Assembly: GCA_019096065.1 (NCBI GenBank)
Contig: JAGUCH010000006.1
Coordinates: 516,001 to 580,000, forward strand
Direction: 5' to 3'
Source: Paracyclopina nana
Lineage: Eukaryota; Arthropoda; Copepoda; Cyclopoida; Cyclopettidae
Length of the DNA stretch: 64,000 bases
Under the pieces are notes generated by a model. The model did not search any database. It was not told the origin of the DNA and saw only the letters and a program-made list of their open reading frames with translations. Below, piece by piece: positions 14,430-58,565 of this stretch. A program made the translations under genes and the position numbers. Numbering within the stretch: position 1 is the stretch's first letter; the number at the start of each line of letters is the position of its first letter.

Positions 14430-16060
14430 AGGCCCTGCCCTGGCCAGGAGCCTGGGCGGTCCCATTTATTCTCTGCTGTAACAGCTACATAGGCCAACAG
14501 GGAGCCCTTGGCTCCCATGTCAGTGGATGAAAGTGTCCTTTTTTGGCCTCCTGAGGTCTGTGCTGACCTTGAGGCTTGGGCCAATCAAAAAAATTCAGGG
14601 TACATTGGCCCTGGCCTGGAGCCAGGGCGGTACCGGTTATGCTCTGCTGCAGCAGCTACATAGGCCAATAGGGAGCCCCTGGCTCCCATGTCAGTGGATG
14701 AAAGTGTCCTTTTTTGGCCTTCTGAGGTCTGTGCTGACCTGGAGGCTTGGTCCAAGCAAAACAATTCAGGGTACATTGGCCCTGGCCTGGAGCCAGGGCG
14801 GTACCGGTTATACACTCTGCTGCAGCAGCTACATAGGCCAACAGGGAGCCCCTGGCTCCCATGTCAGTGGATGAAAGTGCCCTTTTTCAGCCTCCTGAGG
14901 TCTGTGCTGACCTGGAGGCTTGGTCCAGGGCGGTACAGGTTATACTCTGCTGCAGCAGCAACATAGGCCAACAGGTAGCCCCTGGCTCCCATGTCAGTGG
15001 ATGAAAATGTCCTTTTTCAGCCTCCTGAGGTCTGTGCTGGCCTGGAGGCTTGGTCCAAATAAAAATTCAGGGTACATTGGCCCTGGCCTGGAGCCTGGGC
15101 GGTACCGGTTATACACTCCTGCTGCAGCAGCTACATAGGCCAACAGGAGCCCCTGGCTCCCATGTCAGTGGATGAAAATGTCCTTTTTCAGCCTCCTGAG
15201 GTTTGTGCTGACCTGGAGGCTTGGTCCAAGCAAAAATTCAGGGTACATTGGCCCTGGCCAGGAGCCAGGGCGGTACCGGTTATACTCTGCTGCAGCAGCT
15301 ACATAGGCCAACAGGGAGCCCCTGGCTCCCATGTCAGAGGATGAAAGTGCCCTTTTTCAGCCTCCTGAGGTCTGTGCTGGCCTGGAGGCTTGGTCCAAAT
15401 AAAAAATTCAGGGTACATTGGCCCTGGCCTGGAGCCAGGGCGGTACCGGTTATACACTCTGCTGCAGCAGCTACATAGGCCAACAGGGAGCCCCTGGCTC
15501 CCATGTCAGTGGATGAAAGTGCCCTTTTCAGCCTCCTGAGGTTTGTGCTGACCTGAGGCTTGGTCCAAGCAAAAAAATTCAGGGTACATTGGCCCTGGCC
15601 AGGAGCCAGGCGGTACCGGTTATACTCTGCTGCAGCAGCTACATAGGCCAACAGGAGCCCCTGGCTCCATGTCAGTGGATGAAAATGTCCTTTTTCAGCC
15701 TCCTGAGGTCTGTGCTGGCCTGGAGGCTTGGTCCAAATAAAAAAATTCAGGTACATTGGCCCTGGCCTGGAGCCTGGGCGGTACTGGTTATACACTCTGC
15801 TGCAGCAGCTACATAGGCCAACAGGGAGCCCCTGGCTCCCATGTCAGTGGATGAAAGTGCCCTTTTTCAGCCTCCTGAGGTTTATGATGACCTGGAGGCT
15901 GGGTCCAAGCAAAAAAATTCAGGGTACATTGGCCCTGGCCTGGAGCCAGGGCGGTACCGGTTATGCTCTACTGCAGCAGCTTCATTGGCCAACAGGTAGC
16001 CCCTGGCTCCCATGTCAGTGAATGAAAGTGTCCTTTTTCAGCCTCCTGAGGTCCAAAAGC
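14430..16060 (+). repeat. Left-arm tandem array of a ~171-bp unit (about 10 copies)
   Basis: The block CAGTGGATGAAAGTGTCC (with variants) recurs near 14520, 14691, 14863, 14995, 15165, 15336, 15508, 15674, 15846 and 16016. Spacing is about 170 bases except one shortened copy of about 132. Each unit carries CCTGAGGTCTGTGCTG, a GGCCCTGGCC.GGAGCCAGGGC hairpin, GGTACCGGTTATAC and the palindrome CTGCTGCAGCAG. Small indels between copies show ongoing decay. Confidence 0.85.
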
Positions 16061-16224
16061 AAAGAAAATCTGAACACCGATGAATTGTGGGTAGAAATGG
16101 AGTCCCATTTGTGATCAAAAGGTCTAATGAATCCTTGAAAATAAATTTGATAAACAGGCTATTGATCTGAGAGTCTGAAAAAACTCATAAGAATGAAAAA
16201 TTAACAAAATGTATAGCTGAAACT

Positions 16225-17060
16225 GCCCAGACCAATGTACCCTGAATTTTTTTGCTTGGACCAAGCCTCCAGGTCAGCACAGACCTCAGGAGGCTGAAAA
16301 AGGACACTTTCATCCACTGACATGGGAGCCAGGGGCTCCCTGTTGGCCTATGTAGCTGCTGCAGCAGAGTGTATAACCGGTACCGCCCAGGCTCCAGGCC
16401 AGGGCCAATGTACCCTGAATTTTTTTATTTGGACCAAGCCTCCAGGCCAGCACAGACCTCAGGAGGCTGAAAAAGGACATTTTCATCCACTGACATGGGA
16501 GCCAGGGGCTACCTGTTGGCCTATGTAGCTGCTGCAGCAGAGTATAACCGGTACCGCCCTGGACCAAGCCTCCAGGTCAGCACAGACCTCAGGAGGCTGA
16601 AAAAGGGCACTTTCATCCACTGACATGGGAGCCAGGGGCTCCCTGTTGGCCTATGTAGCTGCTGCAGCAGAGTGTATAACCGGTACCGCCCAGGCTCCAG
16701 GCCAGGGCCAATGTACCCTGAATTTTTTTGCTTGGACCAAGCCTCCAGGTCAGCACAGACCTCAGGAGGCCAAAAAAGGACACTTTCATCCACTGACATG
16801 GGAGCCAGGGGCTACCTGTTGGCCTATGAAGCTGCTGCAGTAGAGCATGGGTCCCAGGCCGCCCTGGCTCCAGGCCAGGGCCAATGTACCCTGAATTTTT
16901 TTGATTGGCCCAAGCCTCAAGGTCAGCACAGACCTCAGGAGGCCAAAAAAGGACACTTTCATCCACTGACATGGGAGCCAAGGGCTCCCTGTTGGCCTAT
17001 GTAGCTGTTACAGCAGAGAATAAATGGGACCGCCCAGGCTCCTGGCCAGGGGCAGGGCCT
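16225..17060 (-). repeat. Right-arm tandem array of the same unit (about 5 copies)
   Basis: The complement of the left-arm unit recurs near 16313, 16487, 16618, 16793 and 16966, again including one shortened unit (16487-16618). The shortened unit is also present on the left, so the arms share internal history. The difference in copy number (about 10 versus 5) indicates unequal exchange or slippage after the arms formed. Confidence 0.85.
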
Positions 17061-37354: not shown

Positions 37355-38559
37355 TCAAAAAATCGTGCCATAAGTAGACTGAGTGGTGTTGTTACTGCTG
37401 TCAGCTTGGTCCACATTTTGGCCAATTGGGCTCACTTTTTGCCTGTAGCCCATAATAACAAGTTTCAGAGCCAAAAATACACAGCTGATGCCAAGCAGTC
37501 CAGCCACAAACATTTTAGTCTTGTCATTGACAGCTTGATCCTCCACTTCATTGGCTACTATGGCACTTGTTGACCATATCAGAACTAAAAAGAAAGCAAT
37601 ATTTGATTGCACAACTGTTATATGGCTGAGGCTATGATATTACCCAGGTATGGAGTCAGCAGGAGCCTCAAAATGTGATCTAATTTTGTGTTCTCCACCA
37701 GGAAGTAAAGCACTACTATGATTAGCAGGAGTGACAGGCAAATGTTTGAAGTGGTCAACATTGAGACACCAGAGACATATCTTAGAGCATGGCCAAGATT
37801 TAGCAAGCTTGCCACTGTGGTCCAAGTTGTGTAAATACCTTGGCCATTGATCACAAATACATAAGCCCTGTGGAAAGAAGGAGATCTGTAGCATGTACTC
37901 AGAACATGGAAAAGTTCTTACCAGTAAAGTTTCTTGTTTTTGGATAGCAAATCATGGTTGTTTTTGGCCAAGTTCCTCACTAAAATTCCCGTAGCTACCC
38001 AATTTGTTAAAGCCATGAAAATGAGGACTGCACAAGAAGTGATGATCTCTTCTCTGTCCCAGGCAAAAATCCACGTTGTATTCAGAGCCAAATTGAGGGA
38101 GAAAGTAAAGCAGAAAATCAGATCAATGATGTTTGGGCTCAAATAGAGCTTTTGATGGCTACTTTTGTCCTCTTTGAACACAGTATACACAACTATTAAA
38201 AGAACAATAAGGTCAAGTTTCTATGACTCATTGATGACTAGCTCACTGAATACTAGTGAAATTCCCATCCAAATGTAAATTAGGCCCCAAATTGAAAAGG
38301 CCCATCCTGCTGGAGTGATATCCAAAAAGTACTTGTCTGACAATTCTCCTACTGTGCTATAGAATATTGAAAAGCCTAGAAAGTTACCAGATTAGGTCAT
38401 GAACTTAATTAGTACTTTTCATTTACCTCCAATTCCGGAAAGTGTGTTGAAAATGACAGCCAAGAGGTAAATGACAACAATGGCAGCTATGCCAATTAAA
38501 TTTGGCAAATTGTGACCTTCCAGCTCCAGCATTGTCTCACTTTTAACTTCCTTTATCAT
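37355..38559 (-). CDS. TspO/MBR-like multi-pass membrane protein, tandem copy 3 (diverged)
   Basis: Five exons: 38559-38427, 38375-38247, 38192-37922, 37867-37644 and 37584-37355. They total 987 bases and 328 aa with consistent phases. After an N-terminal membrane segment, exon 2 carries DITPAGWAFSIWGLIYIWMG. This matches the FTPAG.xFSIWGxIY signature of the bacterial tryptophan-rich sensory protein branch of the TspO/MBR superfamily. Exon 3 has the second signature, WIFAWDREEIITSCAVLIF. Exon 4 ends in LLLTPYLG and exon 5 carries another membrane segment. About nine hydrophobic segments are visible, more than the five of classical TspO. The C-terminus (QSTYGTIF) lacks the SEISDKPLP ending of the other two copies, and exon lengths differ slightly, so this is the oldest or fastest-evolving member. 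TspO proteins bind porphyrins or sterols; whether this applies here is unknown. Confidence 0.8.
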
Positions 38560-38569
38560 TTTAGTGGCT

Positions 38570-38880
38570 GCCTGTGCTTACATCATAAAACTAGAGATAA
38601 GGGCTGTAAAATGAGTCACATGACTTTAAGTGGGGCCAAATTCTCTTGATTCACTCTACCTATGCTTTTAAGGTTCAATTTTTAATTTTGCAATATAAGA
38701 ATGTGTATTTTTCATTTTGGACTATGTTGAGTGCTTCCATTAAATCTGAAATAATGAAGAGTGTTTTGTCCCATCTTTTTAGAATAAAGTGTCACTTCTC
38801 GGAAAGTGATTTGTCAATATTGTTGTAATGTAGCACACAATAAAAAAATGGTATGTATTCAGGATGTTTGCTCAATGTAA
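38570..38880. other. Spacer between TspO-like genes 2 and 3
   Basis: AT-rich and without a supported exon. It should contain the promoter of gene 3 and the 3' end of gene 2. A poly(A) signal AATAAA for gene 2 reads on the minus strand at 38890-38885. Confidence 0.5.
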
Positions 38881-38935
38881 GCTGTTTATTATTCACTTTG
38901 TGTGCAAAGGCTTTGGTATATTGAGATAAAGAGCA

Positions 38936-40316
38936 TTAAGGGAGGGGCTTGTCAGATATTTCAGACATGCCACTACTGCCCAATGGTCTCTTCATTTGTC
39001 TTAGGATTACAAATACAATTCTCAAGGCCAAGAAGACGCAAGCAAGGCCTAAAATGGCTTTCACCAACTTTTTGGCCTCATCTGGAACTGTGTCATCAGA
39101 GTCCTTCTTGACAAGAATCCCAATTGAGGCCCAGATGACCACTGTGGAAGAATTAATGTCATGTTATTGAGATTTATTGGTTTCCTCACAACTTACCTAA
39201 GTACGGTGTGAGTAAAAGCCTAATGTAATTATCAAGTACTGTGTTTTCGAGTAGGAAGTAGACAACGATGACAGCTAGGAGAATTCCTAGGCAAATATGA
39301 CTAACTCGTACTTCATCAATACTGGCCACATACTTCAAGCTGATGCCAAAGTTTAGCAAACTTGCTATTACTGTCCAGGTTGCATATACCCCGTGGCCAT
39401 TCAGTGCCAAAGCAACATAAAGCCTAAAATGGAAAATCATCGCGAAAAACAATTTTGTTTCCAGCATTTAAAAATGGGCTTTTTCCTTCGAAGCCCCTGC
39501 AACTATTGACTTGTATTTTTGTGGAAAATCGAATAAAATTACCAGTAAGCTTTAGGTTTCTCATTCCTCAGCTCATGACTGTCTTGTGCAATATTTTTTG
39601 CCAAAAGCCCAACGCAGAATATATTTGTTTTGGCAATCAGGAACAGAAGTATTGCTGAGGCAACCAGTTGCTCCCTGTCCCAAGTAAAAGTCCAAGCAAT
39701 ATTGTACATCAGATTGGTGATGAAAAAGTAGCTGAACCATGGGCTGATTACAACTGGGTTCAAGTATAACTTACTCATATAGCCTCCATAAAATACCGAC
39801 ACAACGTCTGGAATGAAAGTGTGACTTCTTACTGCCTTGCAATACAATCCGGAGGCGTTCAAATACTTACAGAAAATTATGGCCAAAGCCAACCAAGTAT
39901 AGATGATGCCCCAAATAGAGAAAGTGAATCCAGCTGGAGTAAATGGTAGCTCATACTTGGCACTCAGGTCGCCAACAGTGTTGATGAAGACTTTGCCTGA
40001 AATAGAGAAATGAAAAGAATTTTTTTCATGATACGGAAACATTTCACATTATTAGTTTTTTTTCATGTACCCTCTATTTCATTTGAAATTATAATCTCAG
40101 TCTCAATTTCATTGCTGAAAGTCAGCTTGAGCTGATTTTAGAACATTCTTGATGAGTCAAGCTTTATAACTCAGAAATGGTGGGCCCATTTCAAAAATAA
40201 AACGTACCTCCTGATCCTGAGAGGCCATTGATGGTGACAGTGGCAATATAAGTTGCAAAAATGCCAAAAATACCAAGCATGTTGACAACATTGTGATTCT
40301 TTTCTTCGCTGAACAT
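38936..40316 (-). CDS. TspO/MBR-like multi-pass membrane protein, tandem copy 2
   Basis: Five exons: 40316-40208, 39996-39871, 39807-39543, 39423-39197 and 39141-38936. They measure 109, 126, 265, 227 and 206 bases, total 933 bases and give 310 aa. Exon 2 carries FTPAGFTFSIWGIIYTWLAL, the canonical TspO-like (tryptophan-rich sensory protein) signature. Exon 3 carries YNIAWTFTWDREQLVASAIL, corresponding to the aromatic WxFAW helix of that family. Exons 4 and 5 add segments including LLLTPYLG, VVIWASIGILVKKD and the ending SEISDKPLP. The start MFSEEKNHNVVNMLGIFGIF matches copy 1. All five exon lengths equal those of copy 1, showing recent tandem duplication under constraint. A poly(A) signal follows at 38890-38885. 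Ligand and location are unknown; an integral membrane protein is certain from the sequence. Confidence 0.85.
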
Positions 40317-40815
40317 TTTGGTTGACTAAGGTAAACAAAAAGCGTACCTGTGCCTTGTGTGTGAGTGTATGTGCACTCTCTAGTCTTCAAACTCTCTATA
40401 TCGATTATAGGCCTCAGTTATTTATTTATGAACAGTTGGTTGTTGGAAATGCAGCCCTAAGTACTTTGCTATTCAATTTATATCTACTAAAAGCCGTCAA
40501 AGGTTAACCTTAAGTCCAAAAACTATATCTTGAATTAAGGCCAGGCTAAATGTCACAATTTGGCAAAATGGCTTTTTTCGGCTCCATTCTTTTGGGGCAA
40601 ATGTATGAGGGCAAATGTCCAGAAACCAAATAAGGATAGTTGCATAAGCGCACCCCTTGTTACGCAACAAGAAAATACTTAATCAATACAGCTTTAAAAA
40701 TACCCAATATACCCAAAAATGACTCATGGCTTTCAAATGTAATCTTGGCTGAATGCATAGGAACATTATCTAATTTGCAGCAAGAGGCCAAAACTGCTTG
40801 ATCATTGAAGTGCTT

Positions 40816-40821
40816 TTTATT
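40816..40821 (-). terminator. Poly(A) signal of TspO-like gene 1
   Basis: AATAAA on the minus strand, 37 bases past the stop codon at 40858. Confidence 0.55.
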
Positions 40822-40857
40822 CAGGTATTGTAAGATAGTATAATTTGGTTGATGAAT

Positions 40858-42135
40858 TTAAGGGAGAGGCTTGTCAGAGATTTCAGACATGCCACTTCTG
40901 CCTAATGGTCTCTTTAGCTGTCGCAAGGTAACAATCACAACCCGCAAAGCCATGCAGACGCATCCAACTCCTAAAATTGCTTTAGTCAACTGTCTGGCAA
41001 CTTCTGGAGTGTCATCTTTGGAGTCCATCTTAACAAGGATTCCGATAGAGGCCCAGATAACCACTGAAAATAACTTGTTGCAATTGTATTGCAATAGTTT
41101 TGATGTATCGACAACTTACCTAAGTATGGAGTGAGTAAAAGTCTAATGTAGTTGTCCAGTACTATGTTCTCCAGGATGAAGTAGACAATGACTGCAGCAA
41201 GGAGAGTTCCTAAGCAAATCTGACTAACTCGAGATTCATCAAGTTCAGCCACATATTTCAAGCAAGAGCCAAAGTTTAGCAAACTTGCGATCACACACCA
41301 TGTTGCATATACAGCTTGACCATTCATTGCCAAAATCACATAGAGCCTATAATAGGTGAAATGGAGATTTTATCGTTAATATGTTTACATTCTGAATTGT
41401 AACAATTTGATTCAATTACCAGTAGACTTTGGGGTTTTCATCCCTCATTTGGTGGCTGTCGTAAGCAATATTCCTGGCCAAAATTCCAACGCAAAAGATA
41501 TTTGTTTTGGCTAACAGGAACAGTAGTATTGCTGAGCCAACCAGTTGCTCTCTGTCCCAAGTGAAAGCCCATGAAATGTTGTACAGCAAATTGGTGATGA
41601 AAAAGTAGCTGTACCAAGGGCTAACAACAACAGGGTTCAAATAAAGCTTACCCATTGGCGACCCTTTGAACAAGGACACCAAGTCTGAAAAGCAACATAT
41701 TTATTAATTGCACACGAATGCCATCAATTAGTAATGCTTACAAAACAAGATGGCCAAGCCCAACCAAGCATAGATGACGTTCCAAAGCATGAAAGTGTAA
41801 CTGGCTGGAGTAAATGAGAGCCCATATTTGGCACTCAGAATGTAGATAGGGTTGATGAAGATTTTGGCTGAAATTGGAAATGAAGAGCAGCATTTTTAAT
41901 TTGGAGGTACAATTCTTTCATGCAAGTTAAATCATAACCTGGTTGGCTTATTTTCAGAGGAAAATAGTAATTATTTTTTCTTGCACGCAACTTACTATAT
42001 TCTTAGTCTATGAAAAATATACATACCACCTGATCCTGAGAGGAAGTTGATGGTGACAGTTGAAACAAAGGCAACAAAAATGCCCAAAATGCCTAGCAAA
42101 TTGAGCACATTATGATTCTTCACAGGAGCAAACAT
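40858..42135 (-). CDS. TspO/MBR-like multi-pass membrane protein, tandem copy 1
   Basis: Five exons: 42135-42027, 41867-41742, 41684-41420, 41346-41120 and 41063-40858. They measure 109, 126, 265, 227 and 206 bases and give 310 aa. The start is MFAPVKNHNVLNLLGILGIF. Exon 2 reads FTPASYTFMLWNVIYAWLGL, so the FTPAG.FSIWG signature of copies 2 and 3 is altered (G to S, SIWG to MLWN). Exon 3 keeps ISWAFTWDREQLVGSAILLF, exon 4 keeps LLLTPYLG, and the C-terminus is identical to copy 2 over SEISDKPLP. Upstream on the coding strand there is a CTTTAAAAG TATA-like box (about 42,195) and a TTCAGTC initiator-like site. Introns are 159, 57, 73 and 56 bases. Loss of the signature residues suggests a changed ligand site, but this is inference. 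Confidence 0.85.
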
Positions 42136-44368: not shown

Positions 44369-46280
44369 TTAATTGTTTGAGAAAGTATCACCCATGAGAA
44401 GGTCTTTCACACTCTCATAAATGTACTTTCGAGCTCTGGGCGTTTTGGCGTAAAATATGCACGGAAACACAATGGAGGCAACAAAATAGTAATTCATATA
44501 GAAAAATGGCGACCTTAGGAAGGCAAAGGGCACCATTTCATACCTAGCTAGCAAATTGGGCACAATCACTATGAACAGAGCAAAAACTGCTGTAAAAACA
44601 TCAATCACAGTTACTAATGAATCATTATGCAGAGTGTTGTTGTATGCAACTTGATGTTGTTCCTGCTGCTGATGCTGTTGTTGTTGGGGGACAACAGCTC
44701 TAGTGAAATTTATCTTCTTAAGGGCAATCAAGACAGGACAAATCAACAAAGTAAGAACTGTCAGAGCCATTGGGATGTTGACGCAACTGGAAGAAAGGAA
44801 GCAGAGATGAAATGTTTATCCATCTCTGTCTGTAAAAGCACTATCAAACAAATTGCCATTTTACCAAATTAAACTTGATGAAGCACCCATTAAAAAGCTT
44901 TTAGACGATGACATTTGAGGGAAATGATTGGAAAAGTTCTATCGCTACGTTAGAGCAAGGATCACGCAACCAAGACGCGCTCTCATTCCCTCGAGACCTT
45001 GTCAGCTCCAAACTGTAGCTCATCTACAGTTGCCTCAGTATTGTTAGCTTTTGCATAAGCTGTCAGCTTACTGCTAAATATATCAGTTCGTTTTGTTATT
45101 CCACATCAACAAGTTGTTCGTTTATTTCGACACTTTTGTACGAAGATTCTCTTTGCCGGGACTTCGGCTATATCCGCAAGTTAAGGACGATTACCTGAAG
45201 ACTTAGTAGCTTCAGGCCTCTTCCTTTCAGGAAACTTACATGAAGAGAGCCCAGTCTGAGATTTGAGATGCTTCTTCATTTGATTTCCCAGCAAAGAAGC
45301 CAACATGAGCATTAGCATGGAATTCTCCACAGTGATACCTCAGCCCAAATGAGAGTGTGCCAAAGATTAGAAAGCCCACTGAGAAAAAGGTGGCAAAAAA
45401 GTCATCATTGATGCCCGACATCAGTGGCCATTTGTACATGTACAGGCACTTGAGGATCATTATCAAGTCCAGCATGACTAAAGTTGCAATGACAAAAGTC
45501 GATCCAAGTCCAATTGCAATCAATCCCATAGCCATTCCTACAATTGTTCTTTTTAATTTTTACATTTGTCAGGGATACTTTCAAAGATTTTTCACGAGCA
45601 ATATTTATAAGGCAAGCTAACAATTACAATTTCGGGCTTTTAGAAGCATGGCCATTGAACAATTGCCCAAAAAGGGGAAGTACATTAGAGCATTTTAAAA
45701 AGCTTGATTCAGGTCGAACCTTCACTCACACTATTAAAATTTTTAAAGCAATGAATCAGCATTTTAAAAGCAAAAGTATTGTTGCCAGTGCAGTGCATAA
45801 CCTGGGGTAGTCTCACATAATTCATAAATGACTTTTTTAGTTACTCATCTATCTTTCTTTAAGGAATTTAAGATATTTCTTGGGACAAGGCCATTTTTCT
45901 GAAGCTATTTAGTGATTAGAAGACATTGTCATATGCTACTCTTATCATCTGTTGCTCTGGAAATTACCAGTTGATCCCAGCACGAATTTTGCTGCCACAA
46001 AATGCAGGGTTGTGATGTTGTGAAGAATCCTGGTCCAGCACACTTGAGTGATGAGTCTGTTGAATAAGTTCCTTTTTCTGGGGTCCATGCCATCCTTTTC
46101 ATAGTAGATGATTCCAACCAAGAGTCCATTGCCAATTGTTATGATGATGAAGTAGATGATGCTGACCAAGCTTGCCTTCATTGCTGAGATGGCAGCCGCT
46201 GGGCTATTTTCTGGCATGTTTGAATAATTCATGACTTCTTCTCTTGACTCCTTTGCCTGCCTAACTGAATTAGAGAGCAT
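44369..46280 (-). CDS. Seven-segment receptor-like membrane protein
   Basis: Three exons, 46280-45968, 45537-45240 and 44786-44369, give 342 aa with matched phases (1 and 2). Seven hydrophobic segments can be placed: two in exon 1 (SLVSIIYFIIITIGNGLLVG and the region after RNLFNRLITQ), three in exon 2, including GMAMGLIAIGLGSTFVIATL and FFATFFSVGFLIFGTLSFGL, and the last ones in exon 3 (MALTVLTLLICPVLIALKK, VIDVFTAVFALFIVIVPNLL and the YYFVASIVFPCIFY region). Exon 3 also has a glutamine-rich loop. The loop between segments 1 and 2 carries YYEKDGMDPRKRNLFNRL. I recall this kind of loop from uncharacterised rhodopsin-like receptor families of arthropods. DRY and NPxxY are absent as such. The ligand is unknown, and a non-GPCR seven-pass protein is possible. 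Confidence 0.75.
44909..45185. mobile_element. Possible solo-LTR-like fossil in intron 2 of the receptor-like gene
   Basis: A CpG-richer block of about 277 bases is flanked by GACGA on both sides (44904-44908 and 45186-45190) and begins with TG. It contains a TAAATATA box followed by TCAGTTCG. Such composition and promoter layout recall an insect-type LTR. The right end is not the usual CA, and no internal domain is present. This is a tentative call; family and age cannot be given. Confidence 0.3.
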
Positions 46281-47128
46281 TTCTTCTGACCAAACTTATA
46301 CTGGAAAAACCTAGCTGAATTGAGAGAGAGAGAGAAATTGCTCTTTGAAAAGTTTTTATTGAGAAGTTTGAGCCATTCTGAGTAATTCTTTTTAGTGGCT
46401 CAAGTAATCTAAGCCAGCCTTTGAATTTTGGACACCCATAATAAAACCTTACAGTTTTTTGCCAATGTCTAACAAGGTGCAATCAATAAAAAAATTGAGA
46501 GGCTGACTCAGGCTAGCAAGAGGTTGAGTTAGTCGTGCTTAAAATGTTCCGTCTATGCAGACTAATTTTCTATAGTGGCTTATGAACTTAATGCAAGTTG
46601 CAATAGAGATGGTGCAATATCTTCAGATCCCAAAAGTTGGCCCCTTTTCTTAACATGAAGTACTGAGCAAAAAAAAGTTTTGCTGAGCAAATTTGCTCAA
46701 ACTAGGAAGTAACAAAAGTTAGTGATCAGCAAGTGAAGTGAGAAAAGAGCAGGAAGATCAAAGTGAAAAGAACTTTTTTGATAAGTAAAATCCATGTTTG
46801 AATCTGTGTGAATGACTATGACAAAGTGCCCAGCTGTTAATGTTCATGCTCAGCATGAAGACCAGCGAAGTACTGAGAGTGCAAAATCCTGTTGTTGTTG
46901 TAATGAATCTGGAAAAACTTGCCTCAAAAATTATCCAGGGAAATTGCATGCTGCTTTGTGGCATGCAGTTCCTATTTATGCAGTGTGATTCTTTATTGCG
47001 ACACTTTTGCCACGTGGGCATGCGGGTCACGTAAGTTTCTCAGCACATACACAATAAGCTGCAGCATTTGTTGACAAACTTTGGCTTGAGGTAATGTTGC
47101 GGAAAAATTAGAACCTACCGAAAAACCT
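46281..47128. other. Intergenic DNA between the receptor-like gene and CFAP100
   Basis: No supported exon. A (GA)n tract at about 46,320 may lie in the receptor gene 5' region. It should hold the receptor gene promoter and the CFAP100 3' end. Confidence 0.4.
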
Positions 47129-50100
47129 CTAATAATCATCTGAGCTATTGCTGGTGGAATTCAAGTCATCAGACTTGAGGTCGCCTTTGAGGCTGTTGCG
47201 GCCTCTTTTCTTCGACATTCGATCCCGGTATGACACAAAAGAAGTTTGTGTTGGTTCCATTCCTCTCAAGCAAGGCTGAAAACATCAAAGAAAGGCCTCG
47301 TCACAAGCTGCAGGAATTAGCTTTAAAATTTTCTGTACCGGCACGCCTGTTCTCAAAATAAGTCAGCTGACGCCAGCTTGGCTTGCCTGTTAATAATATA
47401 AATGCCTCAAAACAAAGAGCTGACAAGGCCGAAAATATCCTCAAAAATTGCTCAATTAGGTCAGAATAATGAATAGATTCCGCTCAATTGGGCCATTGTC
47501 AGCTCTTTTGGATTCAGGAATTTGTTTACCCCAAGTCCAATGTAATATGAGAGCGGCTATTGATGCCTTTAAAATTTTATGTACCGGCACGCCTGTTCTC
47601 AAAAAAGTCAGCTGACGCCAGCTTGGCTTGCCTGTTAATAATGTAAATGCCTCAAAACAAAGAGCTGACAAGGCCGAAAATATCCTCAAAAATTGCTCAA
47701 TTAGGTCAGAACAATGAAGAGATTCCGCTCAATTGGGCCATTGTCAGCTCTTTTGGATTCAGGAATTGTCTTTAAAATTTTCTGTACCGGCACGCCTGTT
47801 CTCAGCTGCAATAAGTCAGCTGACGCCCGCTTGGCTTGTCTGTTAATGCCTCAAAAGAAAGAGCTGACAAGGCCGAAAATATCCTCAAAAATTACCCAAT
47901 TAGGTCAGAATAATGAATAGATTCCGCTCAATTGGGCCATTGTCAGCTCTTTTGGATTCAGGAATTTGTTTACCCCAAGTCCAATGTAATATGAGAGCGG
48001 CTATTGATGCCTTTAAAATTTTATGTACCGGCACGCCTGTTCTCAAAAAAGTCAGCTGACGCCAGCTTGGCTTGCCTGTTAAAAATGTAAATGCCTCAAA
48101 ACAAAGAGCTGACAAGGCCGAAAATATCCTCAAAAATTGCTCAATTAGGTCAGAACAATGAAGAGATTCCGCTCAATTGGGCCATTGTCAGCTCTTTTGG
48201 ATTCAGGAATTGTCTTTAAAATTTTCTGTACCGGCACGCCTGTTCTCAGCTGCAATAAGTCAGCTGACGCCCGCTTGGCTTGTCTGTTAATGCCTCAAAA
48301 GAAAGAGCTGACAAGGCCGAAAATATCCTCAAAAATTACCCAATTAGGTGAGAATAATGAAGAGATTCCGCTCAATTGGGCCATTGTCAGCTCTTTGGGC
48401 TGCAGGAATTTGTGTTTACCCCAATGAAATATGAGAGCGGCTATTGATGCCTTAGGATAATCGAGCCGAGCCCTATCATACCTTGACAAAAGGAGGTGCG
48501 AGTGCTCGGTCAAGAGCCTTTTTGTTCCTGTCAGCCTCGATTTGTCGTTGCCGTTCCATTTTGGCCTCATGCTCACGCTGACGCCTTTCACGTTCACAGG
48601 TCTGAAGAAAATAACATCGTAAATCACACATACACTGCTAAACCTAGCAGCACAATGGTAGCAAAAAAATTAATATAAAAAAGGCCAGATTTCATATGGC
48701 AATTCATGTCTCTGTACTGAGCCAGGGCTAAAAGCATACCACGTTTCACTTTGGTGCACACAGTTGCATTCGTAATTAAATCAGCCAAAGTTTTGCCTTT
48801 CCCTGCCAACTTCCCAAGGGACCAGTGTGTGTAGTCTTTAAGAGCCATGATTTATTGTAGGCTCCTTCTTGGCTATAGGTTGATCCTTCAGTGTCAATGG
48901 GCATTGTTTTCCATAGAAAGCAGTTTAGAAAATGATTACTATTTGGGTGTCCGAGGCGGTCTGGCAACGTCTCGGATCATTTGAGCGGCAGCTTAAAATG
49001 AGTGTATACACTAATTTCGAGAACTCCTTAACTAATTTTTTTTAAAAAAATCCATCCCAGTATGAAAATACATTTGGATACACATATGGTTTATGGAGAA
49101 GAACGCGTATTTAAAAGTGCGGAGCTTGGCGTCGCTCCGCTCGAATAATTACCCGTTGAGCAATTTTGACTTTCTCAATTGGGAGCCTTTCCAATTCTTG
49201 AGTGAGCACTTCCATACGCAATTCAATGCGTTTCAGCAAATCCATGGTGGACACTTCTTGGTCCAGAGGCTCGATACAGTCCACATACACAAGCCTAACT
49301 TGTTTGCCCAGCTCTGAAAAATATCAAGAGGTTTTTTTTCAAATCTTATCAAAAAATTAGATTGTCAAAGTCAAGGTCCCAAGGGAACTTTGCTGACCAG
49401 CTTAAGTCTTCAAGAGGAAATTTGCACTTCTTTCTCAGAATTGGGGCTTAACCAACCTCTGAGGATCTTGTCCTCAGCTCGTTTGGCCTCCGCGGCCGTT
49501 TCCTCCACATTCGCACGTTCCTCTTGCAACTTGATCAGTTCAGCCTCAGCGGCCTTTTCATTCGAGATTTTCTCCTCCACTTTGCGAATTTCCAGCTCAA
49601 AGTTGGCTGCTTGATGGTTCAACCTTGACCGAGTCTGAAAATCTGCTTATTTTTCTTATCATTTTTACTTAAAAAAACTTTCACCTCTCTAACCGAAGTC
49701 TTGATTTTCTCAAGATTTCCCTCCTCTTCGCGGCATTCTTGGATCAACTTGAGGTTTTCGTCCTCGAGGTCCGTAAAAATGGAAAGAAGTTGTTGAGGAT
49801 GCTGAAAGTAGAGTTTCACAGCTCCTTTGGCTTTCTCTGCAAGAATAGACGTCCAAGTCACAGTGAAAGCCTTGAGGCACTCGAGCCAGCTCACCAAATT
49901 CCTCGGTGGACATGTTCAGCGTCTGGGTCATGACCTTGGCCACGGCGGCCTCTTTTTCCAGCTTCTTTTTGCGCTCAAGCTCCTGTTGCTCTTCAATTTT
50001 GCGCAGCTCCTCAGTGGACATGATTGAGGCCGTTGAGGCTGCTGAGGCTTGAGCAGTGATTTTCCACTTTGACACACTCCTCCTTGAGGTTGTTGTGGTG

Positions 50101-55789: not shown

Positions 55790-58565
55790 ATGGATCAATT
55801 TTTGGACACAACTTCAGTGCATGGCTTTTACTATATACAAAAAAAGCATGCTTTCATTGACAGGCTGTTTTGGGTAAGCAAAATTGCCCCATTTCATCAA
55901 ATTGATTTTCATGCTTTTAATTTCTTAGGCTTTGGTTGTTTTGGGTGGATTTTCTTTTGGCATCACTTTGATACACAAAAGTTTCAAAGATTGGCGCGAA
56001 CATCCAACAATTACAACTTTGGAATCCATCTCAGCCCCAATCAGTCAAGTGAAATTTCCCACAGTGACAGTCTGTCCAAGTGTGAGCCAAACTGATAATT
56101 GGTCATTTCTAGAAAAGTTTCTGAATGCTTTGAACTTTGAACACTATTATCTGAATGATGGCCCCAAACAGCAACAATTGGGCCTTGAATTAAGGCATGA
56201 TTTGTCTGACCAGATAATTGGTGCTCTAAATCAGAAAATTATCAGAAGATACTTGGCCAACTCAAACAGTTCTGTGTGGACAAGTGCTAAAATTGACGTT
56301 GAAAGTGATTATTCTTACTGGTTCATCAACTATGCATGCCAAGTGGCTGATTTTATTGGGGCCAAAACAATCAAATATGAGGATTTGGTCAACATGACTT
56401 TGCAGTCTTACTTAAAAAGCTCCAGCTTCTTTTATGAGCTAGAAAAACTGGCTGAATTCAATACAGATGGCTTCTTTGACACCTTCTGCAAAGTGGACAA
56501 AAATAAATTGACAACTGCTCATCTGGAAGCAGCCAGCCAGCTGATCATGGCCCATAATCTGCCTTTTGGCACATTTTTGGCTACTTTTGCTAATGCTCAT
56601 GTCTCAAGCAGCAGCTCATTTGACAGGCATACATCCATTGTTTTTGAATCAGTAAAAGAGCTACCAGACATGGATTTGAAGCTGCATGGCTATTTCACAA
56701 GTCTGGGGCAAGCTCTGGGCTTCAATTATTCTTGGTCTCTCTATGACTTGCCAGCCATGCTGTCCAATTTGGAAACTGAAGAGTTTGTAAGCCATATGTA
56801 TTTGCCACAACTGTTTCTGTATTCTCAATTGCTGGTGGACAAGCAATTTGTGGTGAAGAAGCAGTTCAAGCATTTTTGCTTTCCTATTTGGAATAACTTC
56901 ATTGTTGCTGACAGTAGGCATCCATGTGAGTCTGAAAAAAGGTGCTGCCATTTTTGGACTAATCAGTTAGAGCATCAGCTGATGCCAATCATGAAAGTCA
57001 TGAGAATGGCCAATGGAAGAGGCAAGAGCCATTATGATTGGAATGAATTCTTACTGCCTTTTGTCAACAAGTATACTGAAAATTTTTTCTTACTGATAAC
57101 CTAACCTAAGTTAACTTTACAGGCCTGAGTTGGTGAAGTATTCATTTGTTAATTACACTTATAGTGGATACAATAGTCATTACAAATATTACAACCATCC
57201 AAATTTGGATGTAACAAGCTATATTCCTTACTGCTCTTACAAGGCTTCATCTGAAGCTGATTGTGATTTGTTTCAACCTGTCCTCACTGATAAGGGCATT
57301 TGCTATGCCTTTAATGGAATATCCACAAAAGAATTTTTGGCTCCTTCAACCTTTAAAGATTCCTTCATGGAAGCTTACAGCTCAGAGCTTGGCCAAATCG
57401 ACCTGATCAACAGCACTGGAGCAGGATCTGATTATGCTTTGACTATGTACATTTCCAACTCAAAGTTCTGGAGAAAAAAGGGGAAAACAAAGTACTTGAG
57501 TCTGGGCATTTCCTCAGAGTATGATTATTTTGATTTCAAGGCTACAGCAAATACAGTGAAGCCAGGATACATCACAGTATTTGAAGTCACTCCTGTTGAA
57601 GTTGTGGCTACTGACAACCTCAAAGATATTTCTATAGAACAGAGGAAATGCAGATTACACCATGAATCTGAAGATTCTGACTTTTTCCAATTGTACAGCC
57701 AAGCCTCATGTGAGTTTGAATGCAGGGTAAAAAAATCAGTGGAAAGGTGTCTCTGTATCCCTTGGGACATTCCTAGATTGGACACTGAGCAGCATGCCCC
57801 AATTTGTGATTTGTATGGAAATTACTGCTTCTTTACTTTGATGGCCAAGGCAGAGCTTATTGAAGGTAAAACCAATATCTATTTACATCTGTCGCGGGAG
57901 TGTAAAACTGGGCTGCAAAAAGCTGAGAGAGAGAGAGGGGATTACACAATGAAAAAACCCACGTGAAGCTTTTCTAGTCCAAGCTTTGAATACAGTCAAG
58001 ACATTGACCAAAAAATATTTGATTTTGGCATTAATTAATTTTTCAACATCTTTTGATTTCTAATTTAGGTTGTGATTGTTTACCAGATTGCGCAAGTGTT
58101 AGATACACAATGAACAAGCAGGAATTTCCCATAGACGTGCAAAGCCTTTGCACGGATACATATTCAAAAGCATACCAGTTAGCCCTGCTAAAATTGGAAT
58201 CTGGTTATAACGGACTTATCTATGACTACTACAAATATGAGTCGAATAGTACAGCAGGCGAAAGCAAAGTGACTGAGATTTGCAGGGAAATCATGACCAC
58301 AGACATTGGAATTGCTTCAGTGCAAATGGGAACCAAAAAGTACATCAGAACTGTCATGGATAAAAGAGTTACATTTTCTGACATGCTTGGTGTATTGGGT
58401 AGGTTAAAATCGCATACAGTTTCAAATTCTTACAAAATTCTTATCCTTTTGTACTCAGGTGGAACTCTGGGGCTTTTCACTGGCATGAGCATTCTCAGCA
58501 TGGTAGAATTTGTGTTTTGGATGGTGAAACTTGGCTGCAAACAGCTCTTAGTTCCTAAGCACTAA
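55790..58565 (+). CDS. DEG/ENaC (pickpocket-like) sodium channel subunit
   Basis: Five exons, 55790-55873, 55929-57070, 57123-57865, 58069-58398 and 58459-58565, give 801 aa in consistent phases. The protein is an amiloride-sensitive-type trimeric cation channel subunit of the plasma membrane. Exon 1 holds the cytosolic HG gate motif (FLDTTSVHGFYYI) and enters the first membrane helix at RLFW|ALVVLGGFSFG, followed by FKDWREHPTITTLE and FPTVTVCP, all hallmarks of the family. A long cysteine-containing extracellular domain follows, with SCEFECRVKKSVERCLCIPW and GCDCLPDCASVRYTM near its end. The pore helix reads GGTLGLFTGMSILSMVEFVF, including the G-M-S selectivity tripeptide. At 801 aa it is longer than most pickpocket proteins; the excess is in the extracellular loop of exon 2. 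Roles in this family include mechanosensation, salt or pheromone sensing and peptide gating; which applies is unknown. Confidence 0.93.

Follow-up and report, generated by a model that had tools for sequence, protein, structure and literature searches.

The window analysed here, a stretch of 64,000 nucleotides from the copepod Paracyclopina nana (contig JAGUCH010000006.1, positions 516,001 to 580,000), carries between positions 37355 and 42135 three complete genes, arranged head to tail on the minus strand, whose spliced products are candidate members of a long branch of the TspO superfamily of tryptophan-rich sensory proteins. The genes were modelled using the exon lengths given in the original prediction, GT-AG introns and an open frame, and one model per copy fits. 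Copy 1 (40858-42135) and copy 2 (38936-40316) each encode 310 amino acids (aa) and copy 3 (37355-38559) encodes 328 aa. The limits of the array were found to be exact, and the exon lengths (109, 126, 265, 227 and 206 bases from exon 1 to exon 5 in copies 1 and 2; 133, 129, 271, 224 and 230 bases in copy 3) were reproduced with GT-AG introns and open frames, so that the earlier observation of a tandem array is confirmed. The four introns lie at identical alignment columns, in phases 1, 1, 2 and 1, in all three copies.

In copy 1, exon 1 is located at 42027..42135 and exon 2, which covers loop 1 and most of helix 2 and contains the changes G59S, S63M, I64L and G66N, at 41742..41867. Exon 3 (41420..41684) covers helices 3 and 4 and includes the W.F.WDRE signature, exon 4 (41120..41346) contains helix 5 (YATW..IASLLN) and then helix 6, and exon 5 (40858..41063) includes the stop codon. 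The exons of copy 2 are found at 40208..40316, 39871..39996 (FTPAGFTFSIWG), 39543..39807, 39197..39423 and 38936..39141, and those of copy 3 at 38427..38559, 38247..38375 (ITPAGWAFSIWG), 37922..38192, 37644..37867 and 37355..37584, the last exon again including the stop codon in both.

The host genome is that of an animal, as judged from its matches to wnt (12 exon matches in three places), innexin (97 exon matches) and the nuclear-receptor zinc finger (73 matches). When copy 2 was used as query in a protein search of this genome (92 Mb, 10 contigs), which scores the best candidates only, 13 exon matches resulted; all lie within the array, and no fourth copy was found. The sole genomic match of the Pfam family TspO_MBR (PF03073, curated cut-off 24 bits) is an ordinary TSPO located apart from the array, at C3:4653146-4653578, whose three exons when joined encode 168 aa.

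The closest relatives reached are prokaryotic. An initial scan of genome contigs with the three animal proteins found no relatives, a search of NCBIfam gave nothing useful, and a PDB sequence search with query protein A3 had no match up to E 10. A tblastn search of plasmids with copy 2 matched 47 records, several of them annotated as 'tryptophan-rich sensory protein'; the best match was a bacterial protein with this annotation (E 8e-6, 26.7% identity, query residues 21-294). A scan of prokaryotic genomes with five such proteins produced at least 592 pattern matches, at least 512 of which encode relatives of the queries, and 80 loci were kept. A hidden Markov model (HMM) built from those of 221-299 aa scored copy 2 at 89.3 bits, copy 3 at 78.4 and copy 1 at 65.7, compared to at most 7.3 bits for 600 shuffled and 3 reversed copies. 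The alignments run from model position 11 or 12 to position 251 or 255 of 259, which indicates collinear homology including helices 6-8. After exclusion by eye of 18 loci that were over-long, partial or close to another, 62 members remained; profile-profile comparison of the window proteins with these gave a probability of 99.6 over 238 columns. The best BLAST match of copy 2 among the 80 kept loci was L021, from a Lokiarchaeota genome, with 67.4 bits versus 66.6 for a Chitinophaga protein. Twenty-seven positions are conserved in at least 58 of the 62 members, and 21 of these are retained in at least one animal copy. The animal proteins are thus collinear nearly throughout with a prokaryotic branch of ~260 aa, with 20-25% identity to five bacterial members, but they are longer, lack two conserved tryptophans and carry WDRE where the 62 prokaryotic proteins, for which W.F.WDRE is not a signature, have W followed mostly by H, Y and E or D.

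The relation to classical TspO was examined by profile-profile comparison with eight classical proteins, which gave a probability of 89.1 and a score of 46.0 for the window proteins, the controls reaching 18.7 (best of 30 column shuffles) and 17.5 (reversed profile). With the long family added to the window proteins the score was 56.6, and the controls 20.9 (30 shuffles) and 15.6 (reversed). By hmmscan, 10 of the 62 prokaryotic members match TspO_MBR at E 0.1. When TspO_MBR was run against 30 of the 80 source genomes of the prokaryotic relatives, the cut-off was reached by eight long loci, in one case only with the neighbours included in the frame; two further matches, at 21-22 bits, lie below it. 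L021 passes in the genome search and has no match in hmmscan. Compared to classical TspO/TSPO (PF03073; RsTSPO, BcTSPO and animal TSPO), the animal copies are alignable in the region of helices 2-5, share seven pocket residues and match in fold through a prokaryotic relative. They differ in size, the 310, 310 and 328 aa and the probable eight helices, as deduced from the prokaryotic relatives, contrasting with the classical 150-180 aa or so and five membrane helices (five helices also in the available text of PMC8243069) and with the 168 aa of the animal's own TSPO.

The structure prediction proposed earlier was carried out on two prokaryotic relatives, one of which was compared with the PDB and resembles TSPO in fold. 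AlphaFold2 models of the Lokiarchaeal member (62 sequences) and of the Chitinophaga member had mean predicted local distance difference test (pLDDT) values of 95.7 and 95.9 and predicted template modelling (pTM) scores of 0.91 and 0.92, respectively. The former has eight long helices and a short loop helix; the latter has the same helix order with the third helix split in two. The top five PDB matches of the Lokiarchaeal model are all TSPO, the best being 8e7x (probability 0.99, template modelling score (TM-score) by target 0.70). Transferred to copy 2, helices 1-5, the TspO part, correspond to residues 1-198 and helices 6-8 to residues 209-292. A doubled TspO was considered as the cause of the length and rejected, since helices 6-8 come after the TspO part, and there is a single place, the region of helices 2-5, to which the classical profiles align. 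Given the eight-helix models and TSPO as the best PDB matches of one of them, the extra length would therefore consist of three added C-terminal helices. The five-helix TspO bundle of the animal proteins is supported indirectly, by the prokaryotic models and by the profile comparison with its controls, and their eight-helix fold is inferred from the two folded relatives. The prokaryotic long-family homology, the TSPO structure matches and the animal genes found in the same genome bear out the proposal of a bacterial-type tryptophan-rich sensory branch in an animal.

Residues given as conserved and as binding PK11195 are, in the available text of PMC7956637, Y32, P42, W51, N87, W138, A142 and L145 of BcTSPO, equivalent to RsTSPO positions 31, 41, 50, 84, 135, 139 and 142. 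Using the profile alignments and the RsTSPO alignment and numbering, these were mapped to Y51, P57, W65, N114, W183, A187 and L190 of copy 2; none of the seven differs between the three copies. In the 62 prokaryotic members P57, W65, N114, W183 and A187 are invariant, the tyrosine is found in 49 and the leucine is replaced by alanine in 60. The cholesterol-related CRAC pattern, a loose one, has matches in the proteins, and none lies in the stretch directly after helix 5.

The motifs named in the original prediction were largely found again. W.F.WDRE and LLLTPYLG are both present in all three copies, but the final G of the latter is a read-through into the intron, and the spliced proteins have LLLTPYLV. 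The reported loss of FTPAG.FSIWG from copy 1 holds for G59S, S63M, I64L and G66N, whereas F55, T56, P57, A58, F62 and W65 are retained; the motif of copy 3 starts with I instead of F. As the pocket residues are identical in all copies, the motif loss in copy 1 spares them, and the suggested change of ligand is not supported, although the changes beside the pocket in copy 1 make an altered ligand conceivable. The roughly nine hydrophobic segments of the original prediction correspond to 9 to 11 overlapping Kyte-Doolittle peaks in the three animal proteins, but to eight long membrane helices and short ones in the two folded prokaryotic relatives.

Protein identity is 73% between copies 1 and 2 and 44% between copies 2 and 3. 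At the DNA level the agreement between copies 1 and 2 is 72% for exons 2-5 together with their short introns and 79% in exon 1, which is more than chance, and no match was found in their flanks (800 bases on each side in the query). Copy 3 showed no DNA-level match to copies 1 or 2 in the same search; its kinship with them rests on protein identity and shared introns. The proposed comparison of nonsynonymous (dN) and synonymous (dS) substitution between copies 1 and 2 gave dS 0.77, dN 0.18 and dN/dS 0.23 (bootstrap 0.16-0.33), showing that purifying selection acts between them. Measured against copy 3, 28 changes are specific to copy 1 and 11 to copy 2 (Tajima p 0.0065; binomial p 0.0095). Eight of the 28 fall in exon 2, which holds 42 of the 309 aligned positions (Fisher p 0.036), and G59S, I64L and G66N strike positions that are conserved in 90% or more of the prokaryotic members. 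The faster divergence of copy 1 lies in part beside the pocket tryptophan. The array had been described as apparently expanding and diverging locally. Local duplication and divergence stand, but 'expanding' is weak, the closest copies being already at dS 0.77, and the array looks like an older duplication whose copies diverged unequally, not like a fresh expansion.

We consider it probable that the three genes are tandem paralogues and represent a long branch within the TspO superfamily, in which a five-helix TspO bundle with an intact pocket is joined to three further membrane helices and which has a putative role in ligand binding. According to the models, the first five helices would form a TspO-type bundle holding the ligand pocket, and the three membrane helices would then follow. 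By analogy with established TSPO biology (as given in the available text of PMC8243069 and PMC13185565), the bundle may bind a flat hydrophobic ligand of the tetrapyrrole or sterol type within the membrane, and such binding is the likely role. The protein might then serve as a sink, a sensor or a handling step for the ligand, limiting damage or passing the ligand on. More tentatively, tissue or fine ligand preference may vary among the copies, with copy 1 standing furthest apart, since the changes specific to it are concentrated in exon 2 near the pocket tryptophan.

Several observations weigh against this assignment. None of the three proteins matches Pfam TspO_MBR up to E 10 with the HMMER filters on, and the animal copies are therefore not classical TspO. 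The Foldseek E-values to TSPO are 0.9 to 1.5 despite the high probability and TM-score, and the folded models are those of prokaryotic relatives, not of the animal copies. Six of the 27 positions conserved in prokaryotes (140, 177, 182, 190, 201 and 212) have another residue in every animal copy, and two of the six are tryptophans in the prokaryotes; position 190 is a pocket position, with A in prokaryotes and L, like TSPO, in the animal copies. Exon 2 alone has a dN/dS of 0.68 between copies 1 and 2. Finally, the bacterial gene neighbours point to no consistent function or partner: when 144 of the 159 open reading frames (ORFs) around the 80 loci were compared to Pfam (15 under 120 aa being excluded), the commonest of the 25 families listed, out of 169, occurred in 4 of the 144 ORFs, lycopene cyclase in 3 and the photolyase domain in 2.

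The lack of a tetrapyrrole theme among these listed neighbour families also fits a different view, in which the TspO-like part is a mere scaffold and the real activity, for example transport or lipid handling instead of porphyrin or sterol binding, resides in helices 6-8. These helices are present in both folded members, and W246 within them is kept in the animal copies and in all 62 prokaryotic members. We regard this as unlikely though worth keeping in mind, as the pocket residues P57, W65, N114, W183 and A187 are themselves among the most conserved, in all 62 prokaryotes and all three copies. The asymmetry between the copies could also mean that copy 1 is in early decay, losing function instead of gaining a new specificity. 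Its excess of own changes over copy 2, the hits at positions 90-98% conserved in prokaryotes and the exon 2 ratio agree with this, but the frame of copy 1 is open, its splice sites are intact and its exons equal those of copy 2 in length, the overall dN/dS is low and all seven tested pocket residues are retained, which makes decay rather improbable.

That the relatives reached are prokaryotic might suggest that the animal lineage acquired a bacterial gene recently by horizontal transfer; this genome was, however, the sole eukaryote in the collections searched. The four introns at common positions in all copies and the low identity to the five bacterial members over the alignment speak against it. 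So does a midpoint-rooted tree, in which the three copies group together with a support of 1.0 and are set apart by a long branch (1.75 substitutions per site). A recent transfer thus appears very improbable. The zebrafish si:ch211-161h7.5 group presumably contains further relatives; this gene name occurs in one paper of the open-access full-text literature.

An unexpected lead came from the comparison of both prokaryotic models (m61d359cde2cc and mf5abfeb55e45) with predicted viral structures, for which the best 50 of 62 and the best 50 of 106 matches, respectively, were considered. The same three proteins had E ≤0.001 in each search: ORF114 of Cyprinid herpesvirus 2, with a TM-score by query of 0.76 in the first search and 0.79 in the second, and two proteins of giant viruses that carry the name TspO/MBR or tryptophan-rich sensory protein. 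They are followed by models of herpesvirus glycoprotein M (gM), which made up 7 of the matches considered for the first model (TM-scores of 0.60-0.70, probabilities of 0.87-1.00 and E-values of 0.027-1.7) and 6 of those for the second (0.58-0.72, 0.95-1.00 and 0.021-0.73, respectively), and all other viral matches listed had a TM-score by query of 0.42 or less. In addition, residues 143-292 of copy 2 match the gM family PF01528 with E 3.3e-4 and 20.1 bits, below the curated cut-off of 25 bits. A viral scan starting from query protein A3 yielded 11 loci, and one starting from copy 2 found no relatives.

On these models gM seems to have the same fold as the long TspO branch. It is quite conceivable, though we stop short of calling it probable, that gM and the alloherpesvirus ORF114 share ancestry with the eight-helix branch, a cellular long TspO having been captured and made into an envelope protein, and that the animal copies are its living cellular relatives. 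The evidence on the other side is that, among the matches listed, no gM model passes E 0.001, that copies 1 and 3 as spliced proteins have no PF01528 match, and that none of the 62 prokaryotic members matches this family at E 0.1. In the P. nana genome, a PF01528 search up to E 10 gave one match (E 0.52), which overlaps copy 3 exon 4 and is alone no better than chance, and the same search also gives a match in one (E. coli) of the 14 control genomes. The gM protein is conserved among herpesviruses and its role is still debated. A table in a 2026 structural survey, in the text available of PMC13030845, gives gM as ND in SalHV-1 and NR in other alloherpesviruses. No statement of a gM-TspO link was found among the papers listed from the open-access full-text literature or in the accessible parts of PMC12583693, PMC13030845 and PMC11599850.

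Elsewhere in the window, two hydrophobic-looking open frames on the minus strand (44372-44815 and 45948-46295) lie just upstream of the array; they have no Pfam match at E 0.001 and may belong to a membrane-protein gene. Repeats of ~130-173 bases occupy 14437-17051, in one orientation up to 16053 and apparently in the opposite one from 16232, perhaps as a long inverted arrangement. The tandem repeats at 47311-48453 have unit lengths of 199, 245 and 444 bases, and three large open stretches on the plus strand at 55929-58562 match the amiloride-sensitive sodium channel (ASC).

Among the papers listed from the open-access full-text literature no account was found of a long, eight-helix or tandem TSPO in animals; searching for TSPO together with ctenophore yielded nothing on the long branch, and the identifier PTHR33802 was not found. 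Should the gM fold link be true, it would give a viral envelope protein a cellular origin and a testable ligand hypothesis. The array indicates that an ordinary TSPO and a second TspO branch can be retained side by side in an animal; the second branch probably has eight helices, is missed by the Pfam model and has the tested drug-pocket residues intact. This long branch offers a natural comparison for the unsettled question of TSPO function.

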